Shown in pieces: positions 27,046 through 52,364 of a DNA stretch of 55,287 nt (position 1 is the first letter of the stretch; each line of letters begins with the position of its first letter). The DNA comes from a virus, in the IMG/VR virus record IMGVR_UViG_3300024999_000131, positions 1 through 55,287 of that record; one strand, given 5' to 3'. A program made the translations under genes and the position numbers. Under the pieces are notes generated by a model. It did no database searches and had not been told where the DNA came from. It saw nothing but the letters and a program-made list of their open reading frames with translations.

Positions 27046-27222
27046 ATGAGAAAAGTAAGATTCCTTAAAGATTTTAATTCTTTTAAGAAAGACACTTATA
27101 GAGTTATCATGGAAGAAACTGCATTCCATTATCGCATTCAAGTTAATTTACATAGTGATGAGTTGTATTGGATTCATAAGGTAGATAACGGTGATATTTA
27201 TCAAGTAGTAGAGAGGAATTAG
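27046..27222 (+). CDS. Small protein, unknown
   Basis: A 58-residue ORF with AAAGGAGGTG upstream: MRKVRFLKDFNSFKKDTYRV, then FHYRIQVNLHSDELYWIHKV. This is a small beta-barrel-like pattern (KDTYRV...YRIQV). It ends two bases before the next gene's ATG, so the two are coupled. Confidence 0.67.
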   Translation: MRKVRFLKDFNSFKKDTYRVIMEETAFHYRIQVNLHSDELYWIHKVDNGDIYQVVERN

Positions 27223-41231: not shown

Positions 41232-41243
41232 ATGCACGATTAA
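41232..41243 (+). CDS. Three-codon minigene (Met-His-Asp)
   Basis: TTTAAGGAGGTGAATTAA precedes ATG CAC GAT TAA, an ideal ribosome binding site with eight-base spacing in front of a three-codon frame. The next gene, 41 bases on, has a copy of the same site (TTAAGGAGGTG). Phage lambda has toxic two-codon bar minigenes that release peptidyl-tRNA, so this may be a real minigene or a leader that tunes the next gene. It may also be a deletion relic. Confidence 0.4.
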   Translation: MHD

Positions 41244-41284: not shown

Positions 41285-41431
41285 ATGAACACTCAAAAAC
41301 TTATTAATCGTATTGACGGAGTATGGACTACATGCTCTTCCCAAGAATACAATTCCCAAGATACAGCTAATTTCATGTTTAGCAAAAATCGTGAAACTAA
41401 TATTACTACATATTATAAGAAAATCGGTTAA
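41285..41431 (+). CDS. Small protein, unknown
   Basis: A 48-residue ORF (MNTQKLINRIDGVWTTCSSQ, ending TNITTYYKKIG) with the near-perfect site TTAAGGAGGTG. The strong promoter and binding site suggest high expression. It is polar with one Cys; no function recognised. Confidence 0.7.
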   Translation: MNTQKLINRIDGVWTTCSSQEYNSQDTANFMFSKNRETNITTYYKKIG

Positions 41432-41485
41432 TAATTACACAATAAACAGACATAATTAATGTTCATAAAGCATAAAAATAAAATG

Positions 41486-41538
41486 TAGCAAGAATTTGAT
41501 CACATATCTTATAAATACCACCAATCAAATTCTTGCTA
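41486..41538 (+). other. 15-bp intergenic stem-loop
   Basis: TAGCAAGAATTTGAT (41486-41500) and ATCAAATTCTTGCTA (41524-41538) pair perfectly over 15 bp around a 23-base loop. There is no U-tract after it. TAGCAAG is shared with the loop at 12911-12917, here inside the stem. It sits seven bases before the next gene's ribosome binding site. Confidence 0.78.
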
Positions 41539-41559
41539 TAATCAAAAGAGGTGATACAT

Positions 41560-41757
41560 ATTAAAATTTTACATGGCAGAGATGGCGATTGGATTCAATG
41601 TGACTTTGAAGAGTATGAGAAGAACTATACCGACAAAGTTAATTATGCATTTATTGTCGATCAGGACACCAATAAAGGTAATTATTATAAAAAGGTGAGA
41701 ATTGAAGTTTTTGATAATGAAATGTCAGAAATTAAGAATGAGAGGATGGAAGATTAG
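41560..41757 (+). CDS. Small protein with probable ATT start
   Basis: The frame contains GTG at 41551, but this lies inside the ribosome binding site (AAAGAGGTGAT). The spacing of eight bases points to ATT 41560. The next gene but one shows the same layout with ATT. The product of about 65 residues (KILHGRDGDWIQCDFEEYEK) is acidic and mixed in structure. Function unknown. If GTG is used, three residues are added. Confidence 0.55.
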   Translation: MKILHGRDGDWIQCDFEEYEKNYTDKVNYAFIVDQDTNKGNYYKKVRIEVFDNEMSEIKNERMED

Positions 41758-41759
41758 GT

Positions 41760-41957
41760 TTGGTTAGTTTTGGATTATGTTCTCATGACATTTGTGAAAA
41801 ATCTAATGAGTGCAAACGTTATTTAAATAGGGACTCGCCAAATGCAAATCCTGTTTATTTTAGATTCAAAAATATTTGTAGTGAAAGTAATGGATACCAA
41901 TGGTTAATGAAAGTAGAATCTAGTGACTTAATTCCAAAAGAAGAAGGTGATACATAA
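41760..41957 (+). CDS. Small Cys-containing protein, TTG start
   Basis: TTG 41760 comes two bases after the previous stop, with AGAGGATGGAAG upstream. The 65-residue product has CSHDICEKSNECKRYL, then NICSESNGYQW, giving four Cys as in other small zinc-type proteins here. Its stop (TAA) overlaps the ATT start of the next gene by one base. Confidence 0.65.
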   Translation: MVSFGLCSHDICEKSNECKRYLNRDSPNANPVYFRFKNICSESNGYQWLMKVESSDLIPKEEGDT

Positions 41958-42205
41958 TTTATATAAATAATATTTCTTTACATGGTATTGACTTTCACAA
42001 ATATGTAGTCATAAAGCAAGATGATTTATACAAACATGCTTCAGAGCAAGATCAAATTGATTTGAGTAGGATTCTTAAAACAATTAGATTTGGCAGGAAA
42101 GAAGTTGGCAAGAAGACGGACAATAAGTATTTGGTGATTAATATTGACGAGGATTATGCTAAAGATGTTATTGAGATATTAAAGAAAAATAATCATTGGA
42201 AGTAA
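41957..42205 (+). CDS. Small protein starting at ATT
   Basis: The frame is open from 41951 and coherent for over 80 codons (YINNISLHGIDFHKYVVIKQ, IDLSRILKTIRFGRKE, YLVINIDEDYAKDVIEILKK), but it has no ATG, GTG or TTG near its 5' end. ATT 41957 lies nine bases after AAGG of AAGGTGAT and overlaps the previous stop as TAATT, just where TAATG would be expected. AUU initiation is known for infC. The product has about 82 residues of unknown function. Confidence 0.6.
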   Translation: MYINNISLHGIDFHKYVVIKQDDLYKHASEQDQIDLSRILKTIRFGRKEVGKKTDNKYLVINIDEDYAKDVIEILKKNNHWK

Positions 42206-47530: not shown

Positions 47531-48763
47531 ATGGCAATAAGAACTGAACAAATTGATGTATCATTCAACCTAAAACTTCAAAAAGACCTCCAAGAACATG
47601 AAATTATTTGCTCTTACTGTGAAAATAATATGATAAAGTCTTTTAAAGTTAGACTTGAACCTAATAATAAACAAAATTCTTTACTCTTTGGTTGTGCTGG
47701 AACTGGTAGATGGGCTTATAACTTTGCTTTAGCTAAAATTCAGGAACATTATAAAGAAACTGGTAAATTCTTAAAAGATGGAGAGATTAGAAAACAGATT
47801 ACTCAATTAAAGAAAACTGATGAATTTAAATGGTTAAATAAATATAGTGCATCTACCATATCTCAGCATGTAAAAGATGCCGATAATGCTTATAAGAAAT
47901 TCTTTAAAGGATTAAGTAATTTTCCTAAATTCAAAAGTAAGAAAAAAAGTAAACCTAGTTTTTATAGTAGATACGATAGAATATCTTTTACATTAACACA
48001 TGTGCAATTAGAAAAAATAGGTAAAATAAAATTATCTGAATACAATAGAATACCAATAGGTAAAACTATTAAATATATGAATCCAAGAGTCACGTTTGAT
48101 GGATTAAATTGGTATTTATCTATTGCTGTTGAATTAGAAAATAATATTAATCCTATTTTAATCAATGAAAAATTAGGTATAGATGTGGGTGTAAAAGATT
48201 TGGCAATTGTTAGCAATGGCAATGTGTATAAAAACATTAATAAATCCAAAACTATCAAAAAATTAGAGAAGAAATTAAAAAGATTACAACGAAAAGTTTC
48301 TAAGAAGTATCTGATGAATAAACAAGATAAAAAATTCATTAAGACAAATAATATCAAGAAACTTGAATTTGAAATCCAAAAGGTTTATAAAAGACTTAGT
48401 AACATTCGTACCGATTACATTCAAAAAGTTTCCACAGAGATTGTGAAATTCAAACCATCTCGTATAGTAATGGAAACATTGAATATAAAAGATATGATGA
48501 AAAATAGACATTTATCAAAAGCGATACAACAGCAAAAATTATATGAGTTCAAAATATTATTAAAATATAAAAGTATAAGAGATGGTATTGAATTTATAGA
48601 AGCCGATAGATGGTATCCTTCTTCTAAAACTTGTTCAGAATGCGGATATAAAAAATTAAAATTGAGTTTAGGAGAAAGAGAATTTATTTGTGAAAGTTGT
48701 GGTTGTATTATAGACAGAGACTTAAATGCTGCGGTAAATTTATCACAATATGAAATAGCATAG
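47531..48763 (+). CDS. tnpB: TnpB RNA-guided nuclease (IS200/IS605 family) with foreign N-terminus
   Basis: The 410-residue frame holds a complete TnpB from Met 34: FKVRLEPNNKQNSLLFGCAG, RuvC Asp in LGIDVGVKDLAI near 216, Glu in IVMETLNIKDMM near 313, zinc finger CSECGYKKL...CESCGCI, and the final Asp in IDRDLNAAVNLS near 395. All catalytic residues are intact. Residues 1-33 are unlike TnpB and read as the start of a phage CxxC protein (LQKDLQEHEIICSYC). The element thus seems inserted in frame into a phage gene. There is no tnpA, so it would need one in trans to move. Confidence 0.92.
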   Translation: MAIRTEQIDVSFNLKLQKDLQEHEIICSYCENNMIKSFKVRLEPNNKQNSLLFGCAGTGRWAYNFALAKIQEHYKETGKFLKDGEIRKQITQLKKTDEFKWLNKYSASTISQHVKDADNAYKKFFKGLSNFPKFKSKKKSKPSFYSRYDRISFTLTHVQLEKIGKIKLSEYNRIPIGKTIKYMNPRVTFDGLNWYLSIAVELENNINPILINEKLGIDVGVKDLAIVSNGNVYKNINKSKTIKKLEKKLKRLQRKVSKKYLMNKQDKKFIKTNNIKKLEFEIQKVYKRLSNIRTDYIQKVSTEIVKFKPSRIVMETLNIKDMMKNRHLSKAIQQQKLYEFKILLKYKSIRDGIEFIEADRWYPSSKTCSECGYKKLKLSLGEREFICESCGCIIDRDLNAAVNLSQYEIA

Positions 48764-50512: not shown

Positions 50513-50704
50513 GTGGACATCTTACTCTACAACTCAAAAGATGAAGTAGTAACCGCATACACATCAAACATTCCCAACTATAAAAATGGTGAAGAAATGA
50601 CCATCAAAGGTAGCAATAAATCCTACAAAGTTGTTGATATCAATAAATATCGTATTATGGGTTATGATGAACATGTTGCTTTAGAATTAAAAGTTATTAA
50701 GTAA
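50513..50704 (+). CDS. Small protein, GTG start
   Basis: GTG 50513 with AAAGGAGGATAA upstream encodes 63 residues: DILLYNSKDEVVTAYTSNIP, NGEEMTIKGSNKSYKVVDIN, ending ELKVIK. This is a small SH3/OB-like beta pattern. No function recognised. Confidence 0.65.
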   Translation: MDILLYNSKDEVVTAYTSNIPNYKNGEEMTIKGSNKSYKVVDINKYRIMGYDEHVALELKVIK

Positions 50705-51866: not shown

Positions 51867-52364
51867 GTGAATAAGATAGCAAAAGGCAAAGGAATTAATC
51901 TTACTCCTAGAGAACCAAAAAAGGAAGACAAATATAAGGAAACTAGTGATATTAAGCAAGAATATAAATTTTCTATTGAAAGCAAAGGAATTTACATTGG
52001 ATTTAATGAAGAACACAGAGGACAAGAATGTACTGTTATAAAGAGAAGTGCAAGAAAAAATACTCATTATTATATGATAAAATTTGATGATAATGAAGAA
52101 TTAAAAGATATTACTAATGTATTTTTGAAAACTTTTGAAGAATATGAACAATGGTTGTTAGATCATGATAATGAAAACGAAAATGATACTGAGGATATTT
52201 CTGATATTGAGAGAAAGATTATTGAGGCAGGTCTTATTCCTTATCTAAATTCTAAATCATGTCTATCACCTATTGTTTATACGGAAATGAGGTGCAATGA
52301 ATGCAATTATGAATCTAGATGTATTTATCATTCAAAACATAACTACAAGAAGGCTAAATTTTAA
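51867..52364 (+). CDS. Unknown protein with C-terminal Cys cluster; start uncertain
   Basis: GTG 51867 is only two bases after AAGG, which is too close, while the in-frame ATA at 51876 is 11 bases away and gives a natural-looking start (AKGKGINLTPREPKKEDKYK). The product is about 163-165 residues. It has a basic N-terminus, SKGIYIGFNEEHRGQECTVI (an SH3-like strand pattern), an acidic middle and MRCNECNYESRCIYHSKH at the end, a possible zinc site. Function unknown. Confidence 0.62.
   Translation: MNKIAKGKGINLTPREPKKEDKYKETSDIKQEYKFSIESKGIYIGFNEEHRGQECTVIKRSARKNTHYYMIKFDDNEELKDITNVFLKTFEEYEQWLLDHDNENENDTEDISDIERKIIEAGLIPYLNSKSCLSPIVYTEMRCNECNYESRCIYHSKHNYKKAKF

Follow-up and report, generated by a model that had tools for sequence, protein, structure and literature searches.

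The window analysed here (the complete 55,287 nucleotides of the 55-kb virus record IMGVR_UViG_3300024999_000131) harbors three short consecutive genes, designated A, B and C, of which the first and the last appear to begin at ATT codons placed behind extended Shine-Dalgarno (SD) sequences:

41548..41555, + strand: extended SD of gene A (GAGGTGAT), read from the sequence and kept in relatives
41560..41757, + strand: gene A, 65 amino acids (aa), ATT start, based on start exchange with ATG- and ATA-bearing relatives and on the ratio of nonsynonymous to synonymous polymorphism (pN/pS)
41760..41957, + strand: gene B, 65 aa, canonical TTG start (TTG in most relatives, GTG in G001 and G005)
41944..41951, + strand: extended SD of gene C (AAGGTGAT), read from the sequence and kept in close relatives
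41957..42205, + strand: gene C, 82 aa, ATT start, phrog_5992-like (profile match of the product with E = 2.9e-19)

The original prediction, which had proposed that genes A and C start at ATT, gave correct coordinates for both codons (41560 and 41957), for their SDs and for the spacings: in gene A, GAGG (41548-41551) is followed by an 8-base spacer and ATT, and in gene C, AAGG (41944-41947) is followed by a 9-base spacer and ATT (SD scores of 10.0 at spacing 8 and 8.5 at spacing 9), so that both codons are properly spaced. It was also right in stating that gene C is devoid of ATG, GTG or TTG near its 5' end, the earliest canonical codon within the gene being a TTG 35 codons in (45 codons in for gene A). 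Its description of gene A was incomplete, as it left out an in-frame GTG (41551) that is located within the SD and is chosen as start by the open reading frame (ORF) finder; at spacing 8 the GTG of GGAGGTGAT always falls nine bases upstream of the start and in frame, and ORF finders will therefore choose it. The TAATT overlap between the gene B stop and the gene C start, to which it had drawn attention, is present in the window and is not conserved (in L002, L009 and L012 the preceding frame terminates at some other point than the gene C start), for which reason termination-reinitiation via TAATT was dropped. Among 60 simulated windows (first-order Markov) none contained a site of the kind seen at genes A and C, as compared to three in the real window (genes A and C, plus one antisense to an ORF), and the TTG/GTG starts of gene B indicate that canonical starts turn up where they are expected. 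Furthermore, the pN/pS values of 0.126 over codons 2-20 of gene A and 0.15 over codons 2-36 of gene C point to purifying selection right behind the start (over codons 21-64 of gene A the ratio is unreliable, given indels and frameshifts in some copies).

Relatives of the two genes were recovered from viral contigs (20 for gene C and 15 for gene A), and a DNA-level search of GenBank phages with the window returned no nucleotide match. At the homologous start position of gene A we found ATT in most relatives, ATA in G010/L028 and ATG in three (G018, G020 and G013/L032, the last being frameshifted further on). In six gene A relatives the spacer is longer by one base (GAGGTGAATACATATT or GAGGTGATTACATATT), which puts the equivalent of the GTG at 41551 out of frame and leaves ATT AAA ATT... 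in frame. An alternative in-frame canonical start is thus lacking in gene C and in the spacer-shifted gene A relatives, and the GTG of the window itself sits inside the SD. Close relatives of gene C display ATT or ATC behind an identical SD. Start exchange was furthermore observed in three other families of the window:

51876..52364, + strand: 162-aa gene, ATA start
50513..50704, + strand: 63-aa gene, GTG in the window and ATG, TTG, ATA or TTA at the aligned position in relatives
27046..27222, + strand: 58-aa gene, ATG in the window

The 162-aa gene, put forward by the original prediction as a third candidate, is as described there: the position is occupied by ATA in the window, G003, G004, G005, G009, G014 and L037, and by ATG in G001 and L038. 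Like gene A, it has relatives with a canonical codon at the homologous start, and for neither gene did we find a relative with ATG at a different aligned position, the observation named beforehand as speaking against the proposal. The 22 relatives of the 58-aa window gene comprise 12 with ATA, 6 with TTG and 4 with ATG (12, 6 and 5 with the window included), and the family tree shows at least six start-codon changes. In the 63-aa family, the G001 homologue (reverse strand, reverse-complement position 92008) has TTA as apparent start (aaggaggagattaaTTAGATATT).

The frequency of such exchanges was assessed by using all ATG-started genes with a good SD, from the window and 18 related contigs, as queries against these contigs; a homologous start codon was counted where the SD had been preserved and the gene offered no other usable canonical start. 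ATA matches at frame 41558 and its homologues, which stem from the frameshifted query G013, were excluded from the final count, and the raw list of non-canonical codons, being noisy, was kept out of the counts. The homologous start codons were ATG (764), TTG (18), GTG (16), ATA (14), ATT (12) and TTA (1), with no others, and the ATA/ATT cases are distributed over 7 families. ATA/ATT thereby make up ~3% of the homologous start positions in this phage group and are about as common as GTG/TTG, so that the earlier statement that AUU starts are very rare is overstated here. Eleven phages served as controls: the four Bacillus/Lysinibacillus phages (DnaE-related group) and three Bacillus Herelleviridae together yielded ATA/ATT at 0/968 positions, and four Clostridioides phages at 2/385, so that the controls as a whole had 2 ATA/ATT vs 1,356 canonical starts (excess in the window's group against all controls, Fisher p = 1.2e-9); counted per family the excess is smaller (7/~520 vs 0/~700 in the Bacillus-type phages). 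Independently of homology, 17 ORFs were found to have a strong SD and no canonical start; the codon placed by the SD is ATA, ATT or ATC in 12 of them, vs 9.5% expected (p = 2e-9), and the same test in the control phages gave no excess of these codons. An extended SD (AGGTGA) precedes 65% of the AUH (AUA, AUU or AUC) positions vs 14% of the ATG sites; by family the values are 31% vs 13%, for seven families only and with significance not computed.

The apparent AUH starts extend to larger proteins. An HNH endonuclease-like protein starts with ATA or, in a second phage, with ATC (the next canonical codon lying 73 codons on), a radical-SAM protein that matches its family starts with ATA, and a DnaB-type helicase has ATG in the window and ATT in G017, whose protein matches its family. 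In G001, a phage RNA polymerase (L040:9123-10841; PF05183, phrog_8308), which we take to be YonO/RdRP-like, has an apparent ATT start after AAAGGAGG and matches the phrog_8308 profile from the profile's second position. The closest cultured relative is the Clostridioides difficile phage LIBA6276 (MF547662; DnaE 57% identical), in whose primase (locus L177, 79599-80660, - strand) the homologous start is an ATA at 80660 after TTAGGAGGTGAT, with an in-frame TGA inside the SD (TTAGGAGGTGATTATAT) 9 nt upstream of it. Staphylococcal phage primases align from residue 1 of this ATA-started protein. The GenBank start (80450) lies 70 codons downstream of the ATA, and the annotated primase is without ~70 residues, including an N-terminal zinc-finger-like Cys motif (CHNNPNDEC...CFTNC).

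Taken together, these observations lead us to consider it highly probable, on the grounds of comparative sequence data, that genes A and C are initiated at SD-directed AUU codons and that AUH codons are ordinary alternative starts in this phage group. Strong and often extended SD pairing (GAGGUGAU, AAGGUGAU) would bring the AUH codon into the P site of the ribosome, and the initiator formylmethionine (fMet)-tRNA would there pair with the first two codon bases and tolerate the third-position mismatch; AUA, AUU and occasionally AUC could in this manner swap with AUG, GUG and UUG at one and the same position. The amino acid inserted at these starts would presumably be fMet, and the yield may amount to a fraction of that of AUG, by analogy with the 10-30% of Staphylococcus aureus reporters (PMC13009471). 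The role of AUH starts would then lie in setting protein dosage, and the host is probably a Firmicute resembling clostridia, in which the cellular machinery itself allows such starts.

Several points weigh against this interpretation. The 26 ATA/ATT sites are clustered in 7 families and do not represent 26 independent events, and 15 of the 26 have an in-frame GTG three codons upstream, in or beside the SD. Upstream of the ATA at 51876 there is also an in-frame GTG (51867), 2 nt behind AAAAGG, and the frame is compatible with a start there. No relative of gene C has ATG at exactly the ATT position (which is occupied by ATT/ATC only, so that a canonical start in homologues is not directly seen for this gene), and in distant relatives a TTG a few codons away serves as start; the proposal of ATT starts for both genes is backed by exchange with ATA/ATG in gene A and with ATC in gene C, and is qualified by these distant gene C relatives. 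Gene A is moreover frameshifted in L033, L035, L036/G003 and the ATG-bearing G013/L032, either through real decay or through assembly error, which means that the gene is dispensable or the contigs erroneous. Were the true starts canonical (i.e. the GTG inside the SD, 41551 in gene A and 51867 in the 162-aa gene), the ATT/ATA codons would be internal isoleucines, in line with the frequency of in-frame GTG and with the choice of the ORF finder. However, a spacing of 8 inevitably brings the GTG, which overlaps the SD, into frame, the spacer-insertion relatives keep ATT and lose the in-frame GTG, 11 of the 26 clean sites are without any upstream in-frame canonical codon, and ATG occupies the ATT/ATA position in other relatives, and we therefore hold this reading to be very improbable. 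Least probable of all appears to be the decay of genes in which mutation of ATG to ATA/ATT has abolished the start and thereby translation: the frameshifted gene A copies would agree with it, but selection behind the start is strongly purifying, the SD is kept at the counted sites (as the test itself required), nearly all changes affect the third position of ATG (with one TTA and no random codons), and replication genes are among the AUH cases.

Other alternatives concern the initiation machinery or the code. A reassignment of AUA to methionine was rejected, as internal ATA codons of conserved proteins align with isoleucine (I 150, L 59, V 46; methionine is outside the seven commonest residues) and the code is thus standard. 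The original prediction had described AUU starts as usually regulatory via initiation factor 3 (IF3) and these genes as possibly sensitive to initiation fidelity; in this view the genes would be held back by IF3 and released as initiation fidelity drops in infection, which would add a purpose to SD-directed AUH initiation and would not replace it. IF3 disfavours and represses non-canonical starts (PMC2268962), the AUA start of ccpN in S. aureus responds to the medium (PMC13009471), and a conserved hairpin precedes the SD of gene A; on the other hand, close relatives differ in having ATA, TTG or ATG at one gene position, the search for a phage IF3 was negative and the products have diverse functions, so that we regard such a switch as rather unlikely, although it deserves more weight than the other alternatives. 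Since start codons are swapped frequently between close relatives, dosage tuning or tolerated drift is favoured over a conserved switch, and the drift among ATG, GTG, TTG, ATA and TTA looks more like expression-level tuning than like an IF3 switch. Improbable, in our estimate, is also a remodelling of initiation by phage or host (through a changed initiator tRNA, an antagonist of IF3 or a permissive IF3 of the host) that makes AUH nearly equal to AUG: the GTG/TTG-like frequency, the AUH starts of replication genes and the few cases in Clostridioides phages are consistent with it, but no initiation-relevant phage tRNA or IF3 was found. The search for a phage IF3 (in records some of which are fragments) gave nothing over the cut-off, two weak matches being discarded for stops in their frames, and in the phage parts seen ARAGORN found only one tRNA-Thr and no fMet-type tRNA. 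A broader and speculative extension, to which we attach a small probability (slightly above that of remodelling), is that large phages of clostridia-like hosts have come to accept every AUN codon, and perhaps UUA, as a start, with the host or the infecting phage relaxing IF3-dependent discrimination and AUH starts being routine, including in replication genes.

Further elements were observed around gene A:

41484..41540, + strand: RNA hairpin with a stem of 17 bp and a loop of 23 nt, shortly before the SD of gene A
41285..41431, + strand: small ATG-started gene, whose product resembles that of gene A (DGxW..C...EY....YYKK; judged by eye, unscored)

The leader hairpin (-19.2 kcal/mol, z = -7.9) is conserved, its stem also forming in 16 of the 17 relatives aligned; the loop varies, A-U to G-U changes lie on the 5' arm, and the 3' arm is invariant. 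The hairpin had no match in Rfam. It hints at additional control of gene A and is possibly a regulatory leader. Upstream of the gene A lookalike, a three-codon ORF (ATG CAC GAT TAA, 41232-41243, + strand) follows a near-perfect SD (AAGGAGGTGA) and could be a leader peptide or an SD decoy. Elsewhere in the window, a TnpB-like protein (47531-48763) shares 80% identity with a protein from a phage-like contig of the metagenome-assembled genome (MAG) FK3.bin15; a host lookup via this gene led only to that nearest match, a phage contig within a 0.9-Mb MAG.

AUU and AUA starts are known in bacterial infC, and AUU in pcnB. To our knowledge, a small number of bacterial genes under autoregulation were previously the only ones credited with them. 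In the present phages they turn up repeatedly in genes unrelated to each other and are exchanged for AUG, GUG and UUG from one relative to the next, and these swaps amount to natural in-place start-codon replacement experiments. AUH starts as such are thus not new, and what we consider new is a phage group that uses them at a GTG/TTG-like frequency, of which a literature search (most subscription journals being outside its scope) found no report. Gene finders restricted to ATG, GTG and TTG will miss or shorten such genes, as exemplified by the LIBA6276 primase, and the group offers a system for testing the compensation of start mismatches by the SD and the influence of IF3 on phage expression. 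The phage genes resemble infC (AUU/AUA) and pcnB (AUU) in being genuine genes with an SD-preceded AUH start, whereas the latter are single regulatory cases in cellular chromosomes and the phage group comprises several unrelated families with interchangeable starts. The GTC start of sigR in Streptomyces is likewise a non-canonical bacterial start with an IF3 effect, but belongs to another codon class and to a single repression system (PMC5472188). As to LIBA6276 and related large C. difficile phages, LIBA6276 has the closest known DnaE and an ATA-started primase, and two further ATA/ATT sites lie in other C. difficile phages; they differ by a lower observed ATA/ATT rate and by a LIBA6276 ATA start that is not annotated. 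Ribo-Ret and reporters demonstrated AUU and AUA starts with an extended SD in S. aureus (~10-30% of the AUG yield; PMC13009471), and there the extended SD directs AUU (cvfC1) and AUA (ccpN, citZ) initiation in a Firmicute, as it would in the phages; that genome as a whole holds four such sites including infC (PMC13009471), in comparison to ~3% of the homologous start positions in the phage group.
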